DNA of 20,097 nucleotides from a virus. The notes under the pieces are model-generated. The model did not search any database. It saw only the letters and a list, made by a program, of their open reading frames with translations, and was not told the DNA's origin. The stretch's first letter is position 1. Every line of letters begins with the position of its first letter. Shown piece after piece: positions 119 to 10,404 of the stretch. The translations under genes and the position numbers were made by a program. Location of the stretch: IMG/VR virus record IMGVR_UViG_3300025138_000510, positions 1 through 20,097 of that record, one strand, 5' to 3'.

Positions 119-763
119 TCATTTTTTCTCCTCAATCTCATAAAAGAAATTGTCGGTGTCTTCAGTCTTCCACTTACCTGTATCTTCTACGTTCCATTCA
201 TTTGTTTGTACCTTCCAATCAGGAATATTATCTTTCACTGTGAAAGAAGGTAAGTCCCAAATACATCTGTTGTTAGGTTGTGCTGCATAGTTCCCATCGT
301 CAAGGGCTATGATATGTGCGCACTTATGTTCGTGCGGTATTTCCGAATGATCGGTATCTAGTATATTACCATCTGGGTGTGCCCAGTCAACTGTAAATAG
401 GTAGCTACCGTGATGCCACTTTTTATCTTTACCAATATATTTGCCTGAAGCTGCGCTTAAGATATTCCAAGAAGTAATAGTAGGAAAATAACTAAAAGAA
501 TTCCATAACTCCAACTCATCAAGTCTACGTTTAGGTACATCTTCGATTTTAAATCCTCTTTGAATAAATGCTGATATTGGGAGACGATAAAAGATTGCAC
601 CGTTTTCCATAATGCAATGAAATAAGATTGCACGTCCACCCATAGAGGTGATACCAAAGATAATGCAGTCTTCAACTTCTCCGTGATGTTTTTTAAGATC
701 ATATAAATACTCCTTTCGTATTTGTGCGTAGGTTGCTGGAATGTTTGCGTTTAAATAAGACAC
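119..763 (-). CDS. Conserved-looking phage protein of unknown function, 214 aa
   Basis: I do not recognise a named domain. The protein has no signal peptide or membrane segment. It is rich in aromatic residues and histidine, with a His/Asp-rich middle (KKWHHGSYLF, DTDHSEIPHEHKCAH). That could suggest metal binding, but no standard motif is complete. The C-terminus is strongly charged. The start is GTG, chosen because it overlaps the stop of the polymerase gene as TAGTG, with a GGGGTGA ribosome binding site about 9 bases upstream inside the polymerase gene. It therefore seems to be coupled to the polymerase and to be the next-to-last gene seen in the replication operon. A role in DNA metabolism is possible by position only. 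Confidence 0.8.
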   Translation of the reverse strand: MSYLNANIPATYAQIRKEYLYDLKKHHGEVEDCIIFGITSMGGRAILFHCIMENGAIFYRLPISAFIQRGFKIEDVPKRRLDELELWNSFSYFPTITSWNILSAASGKYIGKDKKWHHGSYLFTVDWAHPDGNILDTDHSEIPHEHKCAHIIALDDGNYAAQPNNRCIWDLPSFTVKDNIPDWKVQTNEWNVEDTGKWKTEDTDNFFYEIEEKK

Positions 764-2625
764 TATTTTATTTCACCCCAATTACTACCTTTTTCATAAT
801 CTACTTTGTTTGGAACTTTAAGTTCCACAGCAGATTCCATTATCTCAATAATTTGTTCTGCCCTTGCATCTGATTCAACCGATATATCTACTTCATCGTG
901 AATTTGAATGTGTGGTATTATACCATTTTCATATAAAGCTACCATACTTTTTTTAGTCATATCAGCTGCACTTCCTTGTATTAATTTGTTTAATGCCTTG
1001 TAAGTAAAGGCACGTTTTAATGGCTCATCATATTCTTTTCTAGCCATCTCTAGTGGTAGTGGTTTAAATATACCAAATTGAGTTGGTTGCCAAAGATCAA
1101 AATGACACGCTCTACCAAGTAAAGTTCTAATTTTACCACGATCATTTGCTTTACGAGATACATTTTCCATCAGTTGTTTTACAAATGGAGCTTTAGTGTG
1201 ATATTGTTTAATTAGTTTCTCTGCAGAATCTTTCATTAAACCTAATTCAGCCATCAATTTATTTTTACCCATACCATACATTAAACCTAAATTAATAGTT
1301 TTGGCTTGCTTACGTTCTATACCTGCCATATCTGCAACAACTTGGTGGAAATCTGCATCCCCTTGATTGTATGCTTCTACAATCTCATCAACACCATCTA
1401 AATTTTGTAACTTTGCATAGTGAACTAAAATTCTAGGTTCTTGTTGTGAGTAATCAAATGATCCCCAAACAGTTTTTTCTTCTGGAATAAATATAGATCT
1501 AATCATTGGTCCTAACTCTGGGTGTCTAGCTGGAATTTGTTGTAGGTTTGGATTGCTCATACTAAATCTACCAGTAACTGTACCACCTTGGTCAGATCTT
1601 ATTTGATTTATGTCTGCGTGTATCCTACCATTAACTGAATGTTTAGTTATTGAATCTATAAATGTAGTGTGTGCTTTGTTTATCTCTCTTGCATCTGCAA
1701 TTAATTTTGGTAATTCGTGTGGGTGATTTTGTAAAAAGTTTTTTGTAAAACTTGGTTCTTTACTTTTTTCTGTTCTATCATACGGAAGTTTTAGTTTATC
1801 AAATGCTTTTGCAATAGATCTAGCTGCGTGTATTTCTACAGCAACTCCAGTTAAACTTTTAATTCTACTGACAATTTTAGATTCACGTTGCATAAGATTT
1901 TTCTTAATCTTAGCTGCTTTTTCTAGATCAACTCTTACACCTTTAAATCTCATATCTACAAGACAAGGAAATAATTTAGTTTCTAAATTAAATACATCCC
2001 AAAGTTCTTCTTTATATAATTCTGTTTCTAATCTTTGCCAAAGTTTAAGTGTAGATTCTGCATCTCGTTCTGCATATTGTCCTACAAATAATGCAGGTAG
2101 TCTCCACATATCTTTCTTAGGATTTAAACCATATTCTTTTGCAGCTGCATTTAAAATACTTTCGTCTTTACCAATACCAACATATTGTTTTGCTAAAGGA
2201 TTTAATGCATAAGATAATCTATTTTCATCAATCAATGATGCTGCTATCATAGTGTCAACGATTTTACCTTTGACTATTACTCCTGCTGATCTTAACCAAC
2301 AAATATCATACATTGCATTGTGAAATATAAAGGTAGTATCTACTTGACTACAAATATCTTTAATCCAATTTAACACTAGATTTTTGTCCATATTACCACC
2401 TGATTCGTGATGTATCGGAAAATAGCCTGACCACCCCTCTACGGCCACCGCAACGCCAGCAATGTGGCCTCTACCGGTTACATTACCTGACCCTAAAGTA
2501 GTTAAATGTGGATCATTAGTCTCTAAATCTATAGCTATTTCTTTTGCACCTTTTAAATCTTTTAGTTCTTCTGGCATTACCCACTCTGTTTCAGGGGTAA
2601 ATAATGGTATTTGGGTACTTCTCAT
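763..2625 (-). CDS. polA: Family A DNA polymerase (PolA-like) with 3'-5' exonuclease domain
   Basis: Replicative phage DNA polymerase of 620 aa. The N-terminal part carries the three proofreading exonuclease motifs: Exo I with D33 and E35 (AIDLETND), Exo II with D107 (FHNAMYD), and Exo III with Y184 and D188 (YAERD). The C-terminal part has motif A with D391 and E396 (DYSQQEPR), motif B from R438 through K442 to Y450 (RKQAKTINLGLMYG), and motif C with D577 (IHDEVD). All catalytic carboxylates are present, so both activities should be intact. There is no 5'-3' exonuclease domain, as in T7-type phage enzymes. The residue matching E. coli Phe762 is Leu446. The ATG overlaps the stop of the DUF3310 gene (ATGA) and has an AAGGGA ribosome binding site 7 bases upstream. 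It sits with primase and helicase genes in one operon. Confidence 0.97.
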   Translation of the reverse strand: MRSTQIPLFTPETEWVMPEELKDLKGAKEIAIDLETNDPHLTTLGSGNVTGRGHIAGVAVAVEGWSGYFPIHHESGGNMDKNLVLNWIKDICSQVDTTFIFHNAMYDICWLRSAGVIVKGKIVDTMIAASLIDENRLSYALNPLAKQYVGIGKDESILNAAAKEYGLNPKKDMWRLPALFVGQYAERDAESTLKLWQRLETELYKEELWDVFNLETKLFPCLVDMRFKGVRVDLEKAAKIKKNLMQRESKIVSRIKSLTGVAVEIHAARSIAKAFDKLKLPYDRTEKSKEPSFTKNFLQNHPHELPKLIADAREINKAHTTFIDSITKHSVNGRIHADINQIRSDQGGTVTGRFSMSNPNLQQIPARHPELGPMIRSIFIPEEKTVWGSFDYSQQEPRILVHYAKLQNLDGVDEIVEAYNQGDADFHQVVADMAGIERKQAKTINLGLMYGMGKNKLMAELGLMKDSAEKLIKQYHTKAPFVKQLMENVSRKANDRGKIRTLLGRACHFDLWQPTQFGIFKPLPLEMARKEYDEPLKRAFTYKALNKLIQGSAADMTKKSMVALYENGIIPHIQIHDEVDISVESDARAEQIIEIMESAVELKVPNKVDYEKGSNWGEIK

Positions 2626-2828
2626 TCGTAATCCCTTTCGATTATCATATCAATATAGTGCTTAGCTTTAAGAAGGTCTTCTTTCCCACCCTTATTTTTC
2701 GCTCTCACTATGTATTTTATAGCGTTGCCTTCTGCAAAAAGCAACTTGTTTTTATTTATAAACTCTGCCGGTTGAATGACATAGTCTCGATAGTGATTTC
2801 CACCGATCTGTTTTTTTAATGACTTCAT
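2622..2828 (-). CDS. DUF3310 family small phage protein (related to T7 gp1.7 region)
   Basis: This 68-aa protein matches what I know of DUF3310, a family common in phage replication clusters. It has the conserved start IGGNHYRD, the central IQPAEFI and NAIKYIVRAKNKGG, and the C-terminal EDLLKAKHYIDMIIE. T7 gp1.7, a nucleotide kinase acting on dGMP and dTMP, contains a related domain. By that analogy this protein may take part in nucleotide metabolism, but it is much shorter than gp1.7 and has no P-loop, so kinase activity cannot be claimed. Both ends overlap neighbouring genes by 4 bases (ATGA with the helicase stop, ATGA with the polymerase start), which supports the boundaries and points to coupled translation. 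Confidence 0.88.
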   Translation of the reverse strand: MKSLKKQIGGNHYRDYVIQPAEFINKNKLLFAEGNAIKYIVRAKNKGGKEDLLKAKHYIDMIIERDYE

Positions 2829-4333
2829 AATATATAAGCCCTATCAAAGTTCTTTGGATCTAAGACGTGTAATTCACGCTTCGCTCTCGTCGCTCCAGTG
2901 TAGAATAGTCTATGTAATTCATCAGGATCATTACTAAATGTTTCAAGAGCTGCGTTGGTTAAATCTTGCATCAATAAAACTTTGTCAGCTTCTCCTCCTT
3001 TCGCTCCGTGTATAGTTGACATTTTTATACGAGGATTTTTATTTAGTGTTTCTCCATTCGCCCTCATATTACGAATGTAATTTTCTGTAATAGTATCTAG
3101 TCCTTCAAAAGATTCGAACCATACTTTATCTGTTATCAGTCCGTGTTTTTCTTGGCATTCTTTTAATGTATATTTATCATCAGAGTGTAATGTTTTACCT
3201 TTTCTAAATCCTTCTAATACATTTGACCCAACATATTCATAAATGTTTTTAATTTCTAAATGATTTAACATCTCTCCCTTTCTCCAAGATTCCCAATTGT
3301 TTAGTGCTAACAATAATTTAAGAGGTATAGAGTTTCGTCCTTTGTATTGATAATACCAACCTTGAAGTTCACATAGATCTTTTACATCATCTAAAAAATA
3401 ATTAGCCGAAGATAGAACCAACCAATTACCTTTAGACATATCTACTTGTGTAATGTCAGAATATCTTTTTAAGATCCCTTCATCATCTCTAGGTTTATAT
3501 TGTTTATCAAATCTATTTTGAACTTTACTTATTATATGTTGTGATAGTTCGTGTATAGGTCCACCCGGTATACGATAAGATTGTTCTAATGTTTTAATAT
3601 CATCTACTTCTTCTTTGAGTGCTATAAAATGATCTACATCTGCGCCAGCCCATTTAAAGATAGCTTGATCATCATCTCCTGCGATGTAAGTTTTGTTGGC
3701 ATTTGCCCAAAGTTTTCTAACCATATCCCATTGTATTAAAGATAAATCTTGTGCCTCATCTATAAATAATACTTCAAACTTAGGGTTAATATCTTTGGCT
3801 ATAAAATCTTCAAGTAAATCATTGAAGTCTTTCAAACCTTTTTCTTTTTTAAATCTTTGTAATTCTTCTTTTAATAAAAATAATGTACTTCTTTCTATGT
3901 CTAATATATTTTTTCTTGAATCATAGTATTCTAATAGATCTATTCTCTTTACAGCTGCAGTATTTATAATTGTAAGGTATTCATTATCTGAATTAAATGT
4001 ACCGTCGTCTGCAGAATAAGAAGCTGTTTTAATTGGAATGCCACATTTTTGACCAAATTCTTTATAGTCTTCTGACTTCATCATTTTTTCTTTTGTCATT
4101 CCTAATTGTCTGAATGCATAAGAATGCAAAGTTCTAAAATTATCTAGATCATTATCTATGTCTAATGCAAATTTTTCAGCAGCTCTTGTTGCAGCTTCAG
4201 TAGCTGCTTTTCTAGTAAAAGAAAAGTATCCTATTTGTTTAGGTCTAATCCCCTTTTGTATAAATTCGTCCACTAAGTTTAATAACGTTGTTGTCTTTCC
4301 CGTTCCCGGTGGTCCTAATATTATTGTTTTCAT
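2825..4333 (-). CDS. UvrD/Rep-like superfamily 1 DNA helicase
   Basis: ATP-dependent DNA helicase of 502 aa, probably the unwinding enzyme of the phage replisome or a recombination helicase. Superfamily 1 motifs appear in order: Walker A at 7-14 (GPPGTGKT), Ia at 37-46 (FSFTRKAATE), Walker B DEAQ at 192-195, III at 219-230 (GDDDQAIFKWAG), IV with QSYR at 251-254, V at 440-450 (TIHGAKGGEAD), and VI at 478-488 (YTGATRAKREL). It is shorter than host UvrD (about 720 aa), so the 1B/2B accessory regions are probably reduced, as in other phage enzymes. The Walker A motif lies only 6 residues from the chosen Met, so there is no room for a later start. The start lies inside the 71-aa gene and has only a weak AGAAAG about 17 bases upstream, so it may depend on re-initiation. 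The stop overlaps the DUF3310 start. Confidence 0.93.
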   Translation of the reverse strand: MKTIILGPPGTGKTTTLLNLVDEFIQKGIRPKQIGYFSFTRKAATEAATRAAEKFALDIDNDLDNFRTLHSYAFRQLGMTKEKMMKSEDYKEFGQKCGIPIKTASYSADDGTFNSDNEYLTIINTAAVKRIDLLEYYDSRKNILDIERSTLFLLKEELQRFKKEKGLKDFNDLLEDFIAKDINPKFEVLFIDEAQDLSLIQWDMVRKLWANANKTYIAGDDDQAIFKWAGADVDHFIALKEEVDDIKTLEQSYRIPGGPIHELSQHIISKVQNRFDKQYKPRDDEGILKRYSDITQVDMSKGNWLVLSSANYFLDDVKDLCELQGWYYQYKGRNSIPLKLLLALNNWESWRKGEMLNHLEIKNIYEYVGSNVLEGFRKGKTLHSDDKYTLKECQEKHGLITDKVWFESFEGLDTITENYIRNMRANGETLNKNPRIKMSTIHGAKGGEADKVLLMQDLTNAALETFSNDPDELHRLFYTGATRAKRELHVLDPKNFDRAYIL

Positions 4334-4460
4334 ATTTTTTTATTTTTCTTTCTGCCATTTTTAGTTTTATTGTTGTTGTTTCTAGTTCTTGTTTAAGTAC
4401 TTCTATGTGTTGTCTCATTCTTAAATGCCAATTAATGCCTATGTCTTTTGAATATTTCAT
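4245..4460 (-). CDS. Small coiled-coil protein of unknown function, 71 aa
   Basis: The short protein is mostly a charged helix (about residues 12-45, with RQHIEVLKQELETTT and KMAERKIKKYE), a likely coiled coil. A polar tail of about 26 residues follows. The start ATG overlaps the primase stop as TAATG, the same junction used elsewhere in this genome, and without this gene about 126 bases between primase and helicase would be empty. The odd point is that the last 89 bases overlap the helicase start in another frame, a long overlap for a phage. The functional part may end near the helicase start. It might be a helicase or primase partner by position, but no family was recognised. Confidence 0.6.
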   Translation of the reverse strand: MKYSKDIGINWHLRMRQHIEVLKQELETTTIKLKMAERKIKKYENNNIRTTGNGKDNNVIKLSGRIYTKGD

Positions 4461-5998
4461 TAAAAATCATCTTGTTGGTAAGTAACCTTTGATAAACTAG
4501 CATCAATTTTTTTCATAGTTTTAATTTTAATTAGTCGTGGTTGTTGTTTTTTTATAGTCATCCTAATTTCTTCTACGAATATATTTTCTAATCTTTTGAT
4601 TAAATTTCCTGTTTTAATTTTATCCATATCCCAATGGTTTTTCTTACAAAAATTATAAAAGTCTTCCATTCTAAAATATGTAAACTCTCTTTTCTCATCA
4701 GTAAAAGGTAACTTATTAAATATATCATCAAGTGTTCTAGCTGCTTGTCTATTGGTAGTCCAATCTTGTAGCAATCCTGTAATTTCATTAATAGGATCTA
4801 AAGATTCTAATGGTTCTATTTCTTGTATGTTAGTCATCATTGGTTTTAAAAAATGTTGTTTCCAATCTTTTGGTTTAGGTACAGGGATAATAGAGTTTGC
4901 TTGATCTAAACACGCTAGTGCAAACATTCCTGGGTTGTAAAGTTGTTCTGATTTTAATTCTATTCTTTTGTCTCCTACATTTAAAAACCATTGTGGTGGG
5001 TTGGATGTGTACTTTGTTAAGTTTGCTAACATAGGCATTTCTTCTTCACCAAATCCTACACCAAATTTTTTTGTTCTACATAAACCTGATTGACAAACAT
5101 CTCTTATTGGAACATCTTTACACTTGTATTTGTCATAACCTTTTTTATTTATTTGTTTAATTACTGTGTTTTGTATTTCTGATGATGAAAGAGGTGGGTT
5201 CATATATTTAGTGTTAGCTTCATCAACTAATTTTTCCCAATTGTCTGGGTCACATTTTTTATAATAAACTGCAATACTAAATAAAGCATTGTTTCTACCC
5301 CCCTCACCAAAACCAATAGACGCTAATTTATTTAGGCAAGGAGGACCAGCTGGAAAAGCTTCTTCTATTTTCTTTTCTTCAACTTTAATTTTTTCAATTT
5401 CTTCTTTGCTTTTGTTGTAAACATCATAGAGCTGATAAAATTCCTCAAGTGTACAACTGGCGCCATTATCGTTGATAGCATATCGCAATCCTTTCACATC
5501 ATTGTAGTAGGGTAGATTTAAGAAATTACCTGTATCCCCACGTTCTACAAGTATTTCTGTTTGTTTAGGGAAGATCTCGCAACCTTCGTATCCTAAAACT
5601 TTTGCAAATTTTTTAAGTGTGTTCTGCATAAGAGATGCAGATATAAATTCTGTAGTAAATAAAAAGACGTGTGCTCCACCTGATTTAGAACGGCAAACGA
5701 TTAAGGGGAGGTTAAGAGTTCGTATGCTTTGAATGAGCTTGCTATGATCAAAATTATATTCATCGATATCAATACAACCCCACCTGCAATCATTATTCTC
5801 CGTAATAGGGATAATTCCGAGGGCTGCTCCTTTTCCTTCAAGATGGTTTTTCCAGAGTTCATCTGTGACGGGTTTACGAACAATAAAAGCTTTGCCTTTT
5901 TGTTTTCCGTTTTCGCCACGTTCTCCGGGTTGATATTGTCCATATGCTATTGTTAGTCCACTAAATATATTTTTAAATTTTTCTTCCTGCATTATCAT
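4460..5998 (-). CDS. Archaeo-eukaryotic-type DNA primase (AEP superfamily, TOTE-like)
   Basis: Likely replicative primase of 512 aa. The N-terminal AEP catalytic domain shows motif I with D77 and D79 (CIDIDEY), motif II from S104 to H110 (SKSGGAH) followed by VFLF, and a third strand-loop region at about 148-165 (EILVERGD, then NFLNLPYY), typical of the TOTE-type branch. A charged linker (195-215) leads to a helical region with cysteines C221, C293, C302 and C307 (GPPCLNKL, YKCKD, DVCQSGLC). Their spacing suggests a Zn or Fe-S site like that of PriL/PriCT domains; this is inference. The last 90 residues look like a winged helix (YFRMEDFYNF...). No Walker A was found, so the protein has no fused helicase. 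An in-frame ATG two codons downstream (at 5992) is an alternative start; neither has a clear ribosome binding site. The stop overlaps the next gene. Confidence 0.88.
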   Translation of the reverse strand: MIMQEEKFKNIFSGLTIAYGQYQPGERGENGKQKGKAFIVRKPVTDELWKNHLEGKGAALGIIPITENNDCRWGCIDIDEYNFDHSKLIQSIRTLNLPLIVCRSKSGGAHVFLFTTEFISASLMQNTLKKFAKVLGYEGCEIFPKQTEILVERGDTGNFLNLPYYNDVKGLRYAINDNGASCTLEEFYQLYDVYNKSKEEIEKIKVEEKKIEEAFPAGPPCLNKLASIGFGEGGRNNALFSIAVYYKKCDPDNWEKLVDEANTKYMNPPLSSSEIQNTVIKQINKKGYDKYKCKDVPIRDVCQSGLCRTKKFGVGFGEEEMPMLANLTKYTSNPPQWFLNVGDKRIELKSEQLYNPGMFALACLDQANSIIPVPKPKDWKQHFLKPMMTNIQEIEPLESLDPINEITGLLQDWTTNRQAARTLDDIFNKLPFTDEKREFTYFRMEDFYNFCKKNHWDMDKIKTGNLIKRLENIFVEEIRMTIKKQQPRLIKIKTMKKIDASLSKVTYQQDDF

Positions 5999-6016
5999 TT
6001 CTAATTTTTTTTGTAA

Positions 6017-6038
6017 AGGGGGATCTCACAATCCCCCT
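6017..6038 (-). promoter_or_regulatory. Strong hairpin between the 256-aa gene and the primase gene (attenuator or RNA-stability element)
   Basis: An exact 8-base inverted repeat, AGGGGGAT and ATCCCCCT, encloses a 6-base loop. It fills much of the 48-base gap, the longest inside the replication operon, and is strikingly GC-rich against an AT-rich background. On the minus-strand transcript it is followed by TTTAC and then a run of A, not a U-tract, so it is a poor intrinsic terminator. It could instead be a leaky attenuator, a processing site, or a 3' protector of the upstream message, lowering primase output relative to the upstream gene. Confidence 0.55.
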
Positions 6039-6046
6039 CCATTTGA

Positions 6047-6817
6047 CTAGTAGGGAGTTGAATCCACTACTTTCTCTTCCACATCTGCTTTTGTTTGCAC
6101 ATTACCTTTAGAAGCACTAGAATTAAATTCTTTAGACTGTAAGTATAAAGATTTATCCTCTTGCCCTAATATTCTGTCTTGTGTAACAACCCATCCATAC
6201 CAAGAACCTTTGTCGTTCTTTTGTAGTGTAGATGATAAATTGTACACAACCCCGTGCATTGGTGGTATTACAAAACCACCTTTTCCATCAGCAATTTGTA
6301 TGGTTTTCATCATTGAATTCCATTTTTTGCTAACGTTTAATTGAGTTGACTTCATAGTAATCAAAGCAGGAGTATAACCACCTGTCTTTGTCTCAATCAT
6401 TACATAATAAGAAGCTGTTTCTTCTAAGTAGTTACCATTTGGTAATCTAATTTTAGAACCATCTCTCTTACCTGTTTGGATTATAGGACTGTTCGGTAGG
6501 TGTACAGCCACAGGAGCACCTGGACCATCACCTCTATCCGACCATTCTGGATAATCTTTCTTATAGTAACAAGGAATAACCTTGATACCTTTTTTACCAT
6601 CGAACATTTCGCTGGTAACAGTATTATAGATCATACCAGGTTTGGCACCTTCTATATACTTTGCATCACCATCAGTTACCTGCGGTGATAGCTGTCCTAA
6701 GATTCTGACAAAAGGTAACGCCATATCTTCTTGCGTCATATTTTCAAAACCTTTGGATATGTCATCACCAAACAGTGCTAGTGATGTGTCTTGTTTAGCT
6801 TTTATTTCATTAGCCAT
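6047..6817 (-). CDS. Replication-module protein, possibly ssDNA-binding, 256 aa
   Basis: I do not recognise a certain family. The 256-aa protein is soluble. It has an N-terminal helix region (MTQEDMALPFVRILGQLSPQ), a central beta-rich part with many aromatic and basic residues (KVIPCYYKKDYPEW, YYVMIETKTGGYTPALI, SWYGWVVTQDRILG), and a low-complexity polar C-terminal tail ending EEKVVDSTPY. This layout, together with its place directly upstream of primase, helicase and polymerase, fits a phage ssDNA-binding protein, usually made in large amounts. The very good ribosome binding site (GGAGGA, 5-6 bases before the ATG) fits high expression. The acidic tail typical of such proteins is weak here. 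Treat the function as a hypothesis. Confidence 0.55.
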   Translation of the reverse strand: MANEIKAKQDTSLALFGDDISKGFENMTQEDMALPFVRILGQLSPQVTDGDAKYIEGAKPGMIYNTVTSEMFDGKKGIKVIPCYYKKDYPEWSDRGDGPGAPVAVHLPNSPIIQTGKRDGSKIRLPNGNYLEETASYYVMIETKTGGYTPALITMKSTQLNVSKKWNSMMKTIQIADGKGGFVIPPMHGVVYNLSSTLQKNDKGSWYGWVVTQDRILGQEDKSLYLQSKEFNSSASKGNVQTKADVEEKVVDSTPY

Positions 6818-6830
6818 TATACATCCTCCA

Positions 6831-7436
6831 TTATTTTTTCCGGCTTATTTTAGTTTTGTCTTTAATCCAAGTATTAAAGACTTCAGAGGGCATATCGAGA
6901 CCGGCCTCGACACGCTCTCTAAATAGGGCAGTAAGTGTAGCCCAAGCCACATCAGATTTCTGTTGTGGTTCAAACCCATTTTCTGCCGCAAGGTTAAGCA
7001 ATTGCTCCGCCTTGTCATCTTCTCCACGACCGAAAGTTACAAAGATATTGTTTTTAATAATATCCTCCAACTTATTGTCCCGAAGCCATTGATAGGCTGC
7101 AGCTCTTTTCGTTTCATCTTTTGGAAGAGTGCACCTAAATTCTTTTTTAACTGATACTGCAGATCCATCACCTAACTTTATTTCAGTTAAGTTCTGTTCT
7201 GCTAATAGTTCTGGTATAACCCTAGAACTAATATCATCAGCTTCTTGTTTTTTTGATTTTAGCCTGTCTTCTAGTTCTGCAATTTCGTCTTCTTTTTGTT
7301 TTAACTTTTGACATTCTGCAGCTATAGTAGTTACTTCAACTGAATCTAAAAGATCTTTTGAATCTTTTAACATTTCTTCTCTTACATCAAAGCTACCACT
7401 TCCTGTAAAAGTTTTTATTTTTTGTTTTACGCTCAT
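6831..7436 (-). CDS. Phage protein with N-terminal coiled coil, function unknown, 201 aa
   Basis: Residues about 36-78 form a strongly charged coiled coil (KQKEDEIAELEDRLKSKKQE). A globular C-terminal domain follows, containing FGRGEDDKA at 135-143 and a helix with ATLTALFRERVEAG at 166-179. From memory, similar C-terminal domains occur in unnamed phage proteins near recombination or ssDNA-binding genes; I cannot name the family. The layout somewhat recalls Gp157- or Gam-like phage proteins, without a clear match. The start has an AAAGGA ribosome binding site at good distance. The gene follows the 135-aa gene after a 2-base gap and precedes the 256-aa gene by 13 bases, so all three share one message. 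Confidence 0.75.
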   Translation of the reverse strand: MSVKQKIKTFTGSGSFDVREEMLKDSKDLLDSVEVTTIAAECQKLKQKEDEIAELEDRLKSKKQEADDISSRVIPELLAEQNLTEIKLGDGSAVSVKKEFRCTLPKDETKRAAAYQWLRDNKLEDIIKNNIFVTFGRGEDDKAEQLLNLAAENGFEPQQKSDVAWATLTALFRERVEAGLDMPSEVFNTWIKDKTKISRKK

Positions 7437-7438
7437 TA

Positions 7439-7846
7439 TTATCCTTTCTGATAGAGATCGAAATTTATTGGATAGTATTTAGCTTCTCTTCGATCCCATT
7501 TGAGAAGGTTAAATTTACCGTTTGTTTTATCACAAACGATTGCACAAGAAATACCAATAATAGCTGGATCTCCTGTTAACAATACATAATCTTGTTCTCT
7601 AAAGTCTCTTAAGTTTTTTTGCATTTTAAAAACAAAAGGACTTGATGAAAATATTATTTGAGAATCTGGACCATAATTAGGCAAACAGATTACAAGGTAT
7701 CCAAAATCAGATGCACCTAAAATATTTATATTTGCAGGTGGATGTTGTAATACGTAAACAAATTTTTCATTAGGATTATTTTTATAAAAGTCTAAAAATT
7801 CTCTTAATGAGTTTGGTTTATATAATTCAAAAATTTTATTCTTCAT
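7439..7846 (-). CDS. First gene of the replication operon, unknown function, 135 aa
   Basis: Soluble protein of 135 aa with no recognised domain. It starts with a helical, basic segment (KNKIFELYKPNSLREFLDFYKN), continues with hydrophobic strands (KFVYVLQHPPANINILG, FGYLVICLPN, DYVLLTGDPAIIGISCAIVCD) and ends in a basic, aromatic tail. This looks like a compact alpha/beta fold. It is the first gene after the divergent promoter region and would be the earliest product of the leftward operon, a usual place for host-takeover or regulatory proteins. The ATG has no clear ribosome binding site, and with the leftward promoter proposed here its leader would be only about 15 bases. Real gene likely; function unknown. 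Confidence 0.75.
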   Translation of the reverse strand: MKNKIFELYKPNSLREFLDFYKNNPNEKFVYVLQHPPANINILGASDFGYLVICLPNYGPDSQIIFSSSPFVFKMQKNLRDFREQDYVLLTGDPAIIGISCAIVCDKTNGKFNLLKWDRREAKYYPINFDLYQKG

Positions 7847-7859
7847 TCTATTATTCTAG

Positions 7860-7887
7860 TTGACAAAGATATAAAGATTATTATATG
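7860..7887 (+). promoter_or_regulatory. Rightward sigma70-like promoter for the SNF2-like gene
   Basis: A perfect -35 box TTGACA (7860-7865), a 16-base spacer and a -10-like TATATG (7882-7887, 4 of 6 matches) predict transcription from about 7894. The -10 box covers the ATG at 7885, so the message would start after it. This favours the in-frame ATG at 7915 as the true start of the SNF2-like gene. Confidence 0.5.
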
Positions 7888-7895
7888 AATGTCAA
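7868..7895 (-). promoter_or_regulatory. Leftward sigma70-like promoter for the replication operon, overlapping the rightward one
   Basis: Read on the minus strand, TTGACA (7895-7890), a 16-base spacer and TATATC (7873-7868, 4 of 6 matches) mirror the rightward promoter almost exactly. The predicted start near 7861 leaves a leader of about 15 bases before the 135-aa gene. A second minus-strand possibility is the perfect TATAAT at 7885-7880, with a weak -35 TTTATT at 7908-7903. Confidence 0.45.
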
Positions 7896-7914
7896 TAGAA
7901 AGAATAAAATAATT

Positions 7915-9372
7915 ATGGAATATAAATTTAAAACAAAACCCTATAAGCATCAATTATCTGCTTTAGAAAAATCTTGGGATAAACAAGAGTTTGCTTATTT
8001 TATGGAAATGGGTACAGGTAAATCTAAAGTATTAGTTGATAATATGGCTATACTTTATGACAAAGGTAAAATAAATGGGGCACTTATTATAGCACCAAAA
8101 GGTGTTTACAACAATTGGTATACTCAAGAAATACCAAATCATTTAGCTAGTCATATACAACCTAAGATGGTATTATGGACAGCTTCATCTTCAAAATCAA
8201 AATTAAAAGAATACGATTCATTATTTGAAACAGGATATGATCTTCATATTTTAATTATGAACGTAGAAGCTTTTAGTACAAAGAAAGGTTTAGATTTTGC
8301 TGGAAAGTTTTTAAGAACTCATAGAACTTTAATGGCAGTTGATGAATCTACAAGTATAAAAACACCAACAGCAAAAAGAACTAAAGCTATTCTTACTTTA
8401 GGTAAACTTGCATATTATAGAAGAATACTTACAGGTTCTCCTGTAACTAAATCACCACTAGATTTATATACTCAATGTGCTTTTTTAAATGAACACTTAC
8501 TTGGGTTTAGTTCTTATTATACATTTAGAAATAGATATGCTACTTTACTAGATCGAAATTTTGGTGGTCGTAAAGTACAAATTGTAGGTGGATATAAGAG
8601 ATTAGATGAATTAGCACAAATATTAAAAGCTTTTTCTGACAGAGTTCTTAAGGAAAATTGTCTAGATCTTCCTCCAAAAATATACATAGAACGACAAGTA
8701 GAACTTACAGAAGAACAAAGCAAAGCCTATGCTACAATGAAATCCGCTGCCCTCGCTACACTAAGAGGTAAAATGGCTACAGCACCTCACGTTTTAACAC
8801 AAATGATGAGATTACATCAAATTACTTGTGGTCATTTAAAGAATGACGACGGCACAACAACTGAAATTAAAAGTAATAGACTTAAAGAATTATTAAAAGT
8901 TTTAGAAGATACTAATGGTAAAGCTATTATTTGGGCTAATTATATTCACGATATAGAGAATATAGTAGAAGCTATTAGTACAGCTAAAAATGAAGACCAA
9001 CAATTAACCTATGGTGCTAAATCAGTAGTACAATATTATGGTGCAACTTCGTCAGAAGATAGAGCCAAGGCTATTGAAAAATTTCAAGATCCTAATTCCG
9101 ATGCCCGATTCTTTGTTGGTAATCCACAGACCGGTGGATATGGTATTACCCTTACAGCTGCAAGTAATGTAATATATTATTCTAATGGTTATGATCTTGA
9201 GAAAAGATTACAATCAGAAGACAGAGCACATAGAATAGGTCAGAAAAAATCTGTAACCTATGTTGATCTTGTAGCAACAAAAACTATTGATGAAAAAATT
9301 AAAAAAGCATTGCGTAAAAAGATTAATATTGCTACAGAAGTTATGGGTGAAGAATTAAGGGATTGGATATGA
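7915..9372 (+). CDS. SNF2-like superfamily 2 helicase/ATPase
   Basis: DNA-dependent ATPase of 485 aa from the chosen start. Superfamily 2 motifs: Walker A GTGKS at 33-37, Ia-like region IIAPKGVYNNW at 58-68, Walker B as DEST at 143-146 in place of the usual DEAH, motif III TGSP at 173-176, motif V at 403-417 (NPQTGGYGITLTAAS), and motif VI QSEDRAHRIGQ at 433-443. The RAHRIGQ signature is typical of SNF2-family enzymes; phage members are thought to serve in replication or recombination. The in-frame ATG at 7885 would add 10 residues (MNVNRKNKII), but it lies inside the proposed -10 box. The conserved part begins at KFKTKPYKHQ, just after the ATG at 7915. It leads a three-gene plus-strand operon divergent from the replication block and is coupled to the next gene by an ATGA overlap. 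Confidence 0.92.
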   Translation: MEYKFKTKPYKHQLSALEKSWDKQEFAYFMEMGTGKSKVLVDNMAILYDKGKINGALIIAPKGVYNNWYTQEIPNHLASHIQPKMVLWTASSSKSKLKEYDSLFETGYDLHILIMNVEAFSTKKGLDFAGKFLRTHRTLMAVDESTSIKTPTAKRTKAILTLGKLAYYRRILTGSPVTKSPLDLYTQCAFLNEHLLGFSSYYTFRNRYATLLDRNFGGRKVQIVGGYKRLDELAQILKAFSDRVLKENCLDLPPKIYIERQVELTEEQSKAYATMKSAALATLRGKMATAPHVLTQMMRLHQITCGHLKNDDGTTTEIKSNRLKELLKVLEDTNGKAIIWANYIHDIENIVEAISTAKNEDQQLTYGAKSVVQYYGATSSEDRAKAIEKFQDPNSDARFFVGNPQTGGYGITLTAASNVIYYSNGYDLEKRLQSEDRAHRIGQKKSVTYVDLVATKTIDEKIKKALRKKINIATEVMGEELRDWI

Positions 9373-9806
9373 TAAATTTTAATCAAAGTGATAGTCACGA
9401 TATAAAAATACAATTAGAATATTTAAATAATAAACCAGAATATCAAGAAGATAACTTAGCAATAACTAATATAAAAACTAAACCTTTTGATTTTTGGAAT
9501 AAAAGTAAAATTATTGAATTTAAAAAAAGAAACTGTGAACACAATAGATTTCCTGATTTTATTTTACAAGAAGATAAATTAAGAATTAATACTGAAATAG
9601 CAAATAAACACAATATAACTTTTTTATATCAAAATAAATTTAGTAATGGTAAAGTTTGGGAATGGAACATAAGTAAAATGACAAAAGAAAATACTTTACC
9701 AAAACCTATTGTTAAAGAAATGAATCACTATACTTATGTAGATAATCAACAAAAAGTTCCTAAAAAAGTTTATATGTTAACTTTAGCTATGGGATATGAA
9801 ATTTAA
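9369..9806 (+). CDS. Possible PD-(D/E)xK-type nuclease-like protein, 145 aa
   Basis: The start ATG overlaps the stop of the SNF2-like gene (ATGA) and has an AAGGG ribosome binding site about 7 bases upstream; this is preferred to a TTG two codons earlier. The protein has D41 followed by E50-F-K52 (KSKIIEFKKRN), then a helix-strand run with LYQNKFSNGKVWEWNIS at 86-102 and a C-terminal VPKKVYMLTL. From memory this order (acidic residue, ExK strand, then strand with FxDGxxxxW) resembles small phage nuclease-like proteins of the PD-(D/E)xK type. It is basic and rich in Asn and Lys. Nuclease and SNF2/DEAD helicase pairs are common in phage replication modules, which fits. The fold call is tentative. 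Confidence 0.45.
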   Translation: MINFNQSDSHDIKIQLEYLNNKPEYQEDNLAITNIKTKPFDFWNKSKIIEFKKRNCEHNRFPDFILQEDKLRINTEIANKHNITFLYQNKFSNGKVWEWNISKMTKENTLPKPIVKEMNHYTYVDNQQKVPKKVYMLTLAMGYEI

Positions 9807-10026: not shown

Positions 10027-10404
10027 TTAAATATCCTGTAATCCCGTTTCACGATTCAAGTATTTGTATTCTATTTTATGAACATCAAAGTCTTTCATAA
10101 TCTTATTACAAATATCTGTAGGACTAAAATCACCACAACTATAAACATCTAATTGCATTAACGCAGGCTTTGGTTCGTCCCAAATATGCATAGCAATGTG
10201 TGATGTTTCTATAATAGCAACAGCTGTGATACCTCGGTTGCCAGGCATATTACAATATTTTACATAAGGACCCATAAAGACCTTCATTTCAATGGATTCT
10301 ATAAAACCCATCATCCAATCTTTTAGCCAATCTTCATCTGTTGGTGGTTTACTAGCTTCAGCACGAATAATTAAGTGCTTATGCACCAACAAACTATTTT
10401 TCAT
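10027..10404 (-). CDS. speD: SpeD-family pyruvoyl-dependent decarboxylase homologue (AdoMetDC-like)
   Basis: At 125 aa it has the length of bacterial class 1b S-adenosylmethionine decarboxylase proenzymes, which cleave themselves to form a pyruvoyl group and supply aminopropyl groups for spermidine. The core is present: S68 in ETSHIAMHIW (the self-cleavage serine), H73, and C90 in DVYSCGDF. These match Ser63, His68 and Cys83 of the Thermotoga enzyme, though the Ser-to-Cys distance here is 22 instead of 20. The residue before the serine is Thr where the known enzymes have Glu. It may make polyamines during infection as an auxiliary metabolic gene; some SpeD homologues instead decarboxylate arginine or ornithine, so the substrate is uncertain. 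It is the last gene of the virion/lysis operon, 4 bases after the lysin. Confidence 0.85.
   Translation of the reverse strand: MKNSLLVHKHLIIRAEASKPPTDEDWLKDWMMGFIESIEMKVFMGPYVKYCNMPGNRGITAVAIIETSHIAMHIWDEPKPALMQLDVYSCGDFSPTDICNKIMKDFDVHKIEYKYLNRETGLQDI

Follow-up and report, generated by a model that had tools for sequence, protein, structure and literature searches.

A short gap between two divergent gene sets in a pelagiphage genome raises the question of whether one stretch of DNA can carry promoters for both directions and, if so, whether it acts as a switch between them. The window analysed here is a contig of 20,097 nucleotides (IMG/VR record IMGVR_UViG_3300025138_000510, positions 1 to 20,097) of the HTVC023P type, whose nearest named records are phage 023Pt_psg01 and the Pelagibacter phages HTVC027P and HTVC023P; we infer a SAR11 host. 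A sequence-only reading of this window had placed two overlapping, face-to-face promoters in the gap, and we compared the gap with those of related phages.

The divergent gap and its paired boxes

The 68-bp gap (7847-7914) is bounded by a leftward ATG at 7846 and a rightward ATG at 7915. The rightward set consists of an SNF2/DEAD-type helicase gene (7915-9372, + strand; Pfam SNF2-rel_dom and Helicase_C, phrog_62), an ORF (9363-9806, + strand) whose match to a PDDEXK endonuclease (E 9e-4) falls below the curated cut-off, and a further small ORF. On the - strand, a Pam3_gp32-like gene of unknown function (7439-7846) is followed by the replication genes (763-7436), which encode Pam3 gp33-like and gp34-like proteins, a primase, a UvrD-like helicase and a DNA polymerase. 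Position 7915 is most likely the helicase start, and AGAAAG at 7897-7902 (+ strand), its probable Shine-Dalgarno sequence, is kept among relatives. An ATG at 7885 was rejected as the start of a longer helicase frame, as it lies inside the rightward -10 box and relatives do not keep it. Elsewhere in the window, an S-adenosylmethionine decarboxylase gene (10027-10404, - strand) is a possible auxiliary metabolic gene.

Within the gap, a 36-bp element (7860-7895) consists of TTGACA (7860-7865) and TGTCAA (7890-7895), a perfect inverted repeat with 24 bp between its arms, as the sequence-only reading had stated. Each arm is a consensus -35 box on its own strand. The left arm is the -35 of the rightward promoter, for which the -10-like box is TATATG at 7882-7887 (+ strand) after a 16-base spacer (N16), with a start predicted near 7894. 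The right arm, read on the - strand, is the -35 of the leftward promoter, and its -10-like box is TATATC at 7873-7868 (- strand), also at N16, with a start predicted near 7861. The two TATATn boxes each sit within the spacer of the opposite promoter, again as described beforehand. Both are weak, with four of six matches and the conserved final T absent, and the leftward promoter in the window has an alternative -10 register, TATCTT at N18.

By itself, the motif is moderately unlikely to have arisen by chance. Dinucleotide shuffling of the window produced an exact TTGACA-N20..30-TGTCAA pair 2% of the time, while TTGACA-N15..18-TATAT, scanned on both strands, was found only at the two sites of the element (0.15 expected), and two or more such sites occurred in 1.25% of shuffles. 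The element is unique within the window by these scans. A generic promoter scan of the window gave 11 hits against 10.4 expected and the element did not stand out, because its -10s match the consensus at only four of six positions. The real evidence, which settles whether the element is genuine, is its conservation.

Conservation across related loci

Related loci were gathered by protein similarity and not by motif. Among the 155 that hold the gene pair, a set that includes the window itself and duplicate contigs and comprises 67 distinct element sequences, both arms are kept in every one, 24, 25 or 26 bp apart. Seven further loci have no paired gap in our table; one of them (L132) carries the repeat on direct reading, and the others lie on contigs that stop within the gap or close to it. 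Loss of one arm among close relatives, which the sequence-only reading had named as evidence against its proposal, was sought and found in none of the 155 paired loci. The same reading had asked whether relatives keep both the arms and the 16-base spacing: the arms are always kept, but the spacing is not fixed, with TATAT at N16 or N17 and at least 11 changes of arm spacing on the tree.

That tree was built from 94 distinct helicases (94 tips). Along it, the ten TTGAC/GTCAA columns show no change and the sixth positions two changes each, whereas the bases immediately inside the arms show 11-29 changes and third codon positions a mean of 13.8. The conserved block thus coincides exactly with the six bases of the -35 hexamer, and the bases flanking it vary.

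The -10 boxes are also held in register. Across the 67 distinct elements, TATAT at N16/17, within the 16-18 bp spacer range of a sigma70-type core promoter, is found in 63 rightward, 48 leftward and 44 in both directions, compared with 1.5, 1.4 and 0.04, respectively, when the interiors are shuffled. Positions 1-5 of the -10 are constrained while position 6 drifts freely across the family, which is unusual for sigma70; a rightward TATAAT is present at N19 in 43 of 94. An N18/19 register for the leftward -10 was considered and rejected, since its extra positions drift neutrally (21, 27 and 32 changes) compared with 8-13 changes at positions 1-5 of the N16 register. We relied on these conservation counts instead of -10 scores, for which the matrix consisted of approximate E. 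coli frequencies. Collectively, the conserved arms and TATAT registers, together with the bidirectional promoter-like layout of a sister clade described below, give good support to the proposal of two interlocked, face-to-face promoters, and the element is very likely a genuine promoter for both directions.

The main fact that this model explains only in part is a subclade, which includes 023Pt_psg01, that lacks the leftward TATAT. Here, the leftward -35 is unchanged despite a poor or degenerate leftward -10, which suggests that the right arm may serve another role. Six elements of this subclade have TGnTA at N18, which resembles an extended -10.

In a pattern scan of IMG/VR, 69 of 76 new sites among the matches listed adjoin the same genes, with the remaining seven at scattered places. 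Across 1.6 Mb of retrieved DNA, few further inverted repeats turned up, all chance-like except the orthologous site in 023Pt_psg01. An operator repeated across the genome was rejected on this basis, as each genome has one true site and otherwise chance hits.

Several relatives differ around the dual promoter. In one contig (L159), the helicase leader carries an insertion, G+C-rich and about 150 bases long (AAAGGACCTCCGTCC...GGGTTGATATG), downstream of the dual promoter and ahead of the helicase start; an Rfam search of this contig and the window returned no family. Four others (L121, L153, L124 and L120) have a small additional leftward ORF (MYKKQFIVEVSL-like) between the Pam3_gp32-like gene and the dual promoter. 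Separately, an unrelated phage contig (L234, ~2745-2781) carries TTGACA-N-TATAT-NNN-TGTCAA between apparently divergent genes, which is possibly an independent case.

Sister-clade layouts and the operator alternative

The inverted repeat of the window is absent from the cultured relatives HTVC027P and HTVC023P and from the other phages related to HTVC027P. HTVC027P-type pelagiphages share the same helicase gene and gap with the window, and in 75 of 80 HTVC027P-like loci we found TTGACT-N17-TATATA-N16-AGTAAA or a near form, with spacers of exactly 17 and 16 in 29 of 36 distinct sequences. In the loci displayed, this bidirectional promoter-like sequence directly precedes the helicase. Its layout differs from that of the window element in having just one -10, the palindrome TATATA, with a -35-like box on either side (TTGACT and TTTACT, 39 bp apart). 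Since TATATA reads the same on both strands, this one -10 can act in both directions. Neither this shared -10 form nor the interdigitated form is visible in the HTVC023P gap, and a third lineage (L349) has the repeat TTGACA-N25-AGTCAA. Bidirectional initiation thus seems, from these sequences, to be kept across clades while the layout changes, and the two clades indicate that one divergent gap can shift between shared -10 and interdigitated layouts with both directions kept.

These comparisons bear on a further suggestion of the sequence-only reading, that the palindrome could be an operator. In that case, TTGACAnnnATATA...TATATnnnTGTCAA would mainly bind a dimeric or tetrameric regulator of the phage or its host, overlapping one promoter, and the arms would be half-sites. 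The symmetry of the element is compatible with such a site, as are the 3-nt distance between TATAT and the right arm in its dominant forms and the invariance of the right arm where the leftward -10 degenerates. However, the half-sites of a dimeric operator would be expected to keep a fixed spacing, and here the arms lie 24, 25 or 26 bp apart and the left arm lies 3 or 4 from ATATA. Spacing changes are tolerated in promoter spacers and usually not in rigid operators, so this drift fits a promoter and makes the operator the weaker rival. In addition, the conserved half-site equals the -35 consensus exactly, each genome has a single site apart from chance hits, and no regulator has been identified. 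In the sister clade, this gap holds another bidirectional promoter-like arrangement, with a different arm sequence and 39-bp spacing, which likewise argues more for a promoter than for a fixed operator. We consider the operator explanation quite unlikely.

Probable overlapping promoters, with proposed co-expression or competition

The comparative sequence evidence points to a bidirectional sigma70-type promoter as the probable identity of the element, with two interdigitated cores that would serve both gene sets for compact co-expression and not for switching. Host RNA polymerase, presumably with a sigma70-type factor, would bind in either orientation. Initiation near 7894 would yield a transcript for the SNF2 helicase and two small ORFs, and initiation near 7861 one for the primase, UvrD-like helicase, DNA polymerase and others. 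With ribosome sites in leaders of about 14-21 nt, two transcription units would arise from one 68-bp gap. With about 33 bp between the predicted starts, there would be no room for two polymerases at once, and the element would accept one at a time. DNA-metabolism genes lie on both sides, and the simplest reading of this arrangement is therefore that the compact gap would let the two sets be expressed together.

Overlapping divergent promoters are a known kind, for which the element qualifies by its sequence geometry (overlapping predicted footprints); it is a variant and not a new category. The bidirectional promoters of Warman, Grainger and colleagues have one shared symmetrical -10 and starts 7-25 bp apart, mostly 18 (PMC12825309, PMC10268837). 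Like these, the element has divergent (here predicted) starts in a short stretch and a short gap between the two mRNAs, and polymerase would fit in either orientation but never in both together. Unlike them, it has two separate TATAT -10s, two consensus -35s and predicted starts some 33 bp apart, and thus falls outside the shared -10 type, whereas the HTVC027P-clade element has that layout. The Pr and Pc promoters of pLS20 also overlap fully, such that one polymerase can be accommodated at a time. They pair a strong promoter with a weak, activator-dependent one, are controlled by RcoLS20 and looping, and have -10 and -35 boxes that are proposed to coincide (PMC4207663); the window element instead has consensus -35s both ways, interdigitated boxes and no known regulator.

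The sequence-only reading had proposed that the two gene sets may be mutually exclusive. A regulated switch between leftward replication and rightward helicase genes, operated by polymerase competition or by a phage factor, would suit the interlocked geometry, which would bar simultaneous occupancy. There are also precedents, as the overlapping divergent Pc and Pr form part of a switch in pLS20 (PMC4207663) and bidirectional promoters of E. coli can show repression of one direction when the other is activated (PMC12825309). In the latter study, however, none of the five promoters tested was active enough at its basal level for polymerases to compete, and steric competition was negligible (PMC12825309). 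With DNA-metabolism proteins on both sides that are likely needed together, and no regulator identified, mutual exclusion is unsupported here and a switch appears distinctly improbable. That only the rightward promoter is real, with the right arm conserved for another reason such as a start site or early transcribed region, is very improbable: the rightward TATAT is the better kept (63 vs 48 of 67), but the right arm is a perfect antisense -35 with no change at five positions, the leftward TATAT is in register in 48 of 67, and the sole other upstream promoter space of the leftward genes lies inside the helicase gene.

For the bidirectional promoter itself, two consensus -35s may place the element nearer to a competing regime, while its weak -10s make its strength uncertain. 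It is a doubtful possibility that the element lies within that regime, where polymerase would set the left/right ratio without a repressor and a later polymerase-modifying phage factor would tip the balance. As a natural, deeply conserved element with two consensus -35s, it should make polymerase competition testable.

Early expression in the sister clade offers some context. An RNA-seq account of HTVC027P describes early genes of unknown function and expression classes in a mosaic layout, and high early-to-middle expression has been reported for gp33 and gp34 (PMC12753301). In the HTVC027P genome, the promoter-like motif TTGACA ... TAGGAT is repeated upstream of gp33, gp34, gp36 and gp38 (17395 and 17718 on the - strand, 19224 and 19774 on the + strand), and these motifs may be early promoters.
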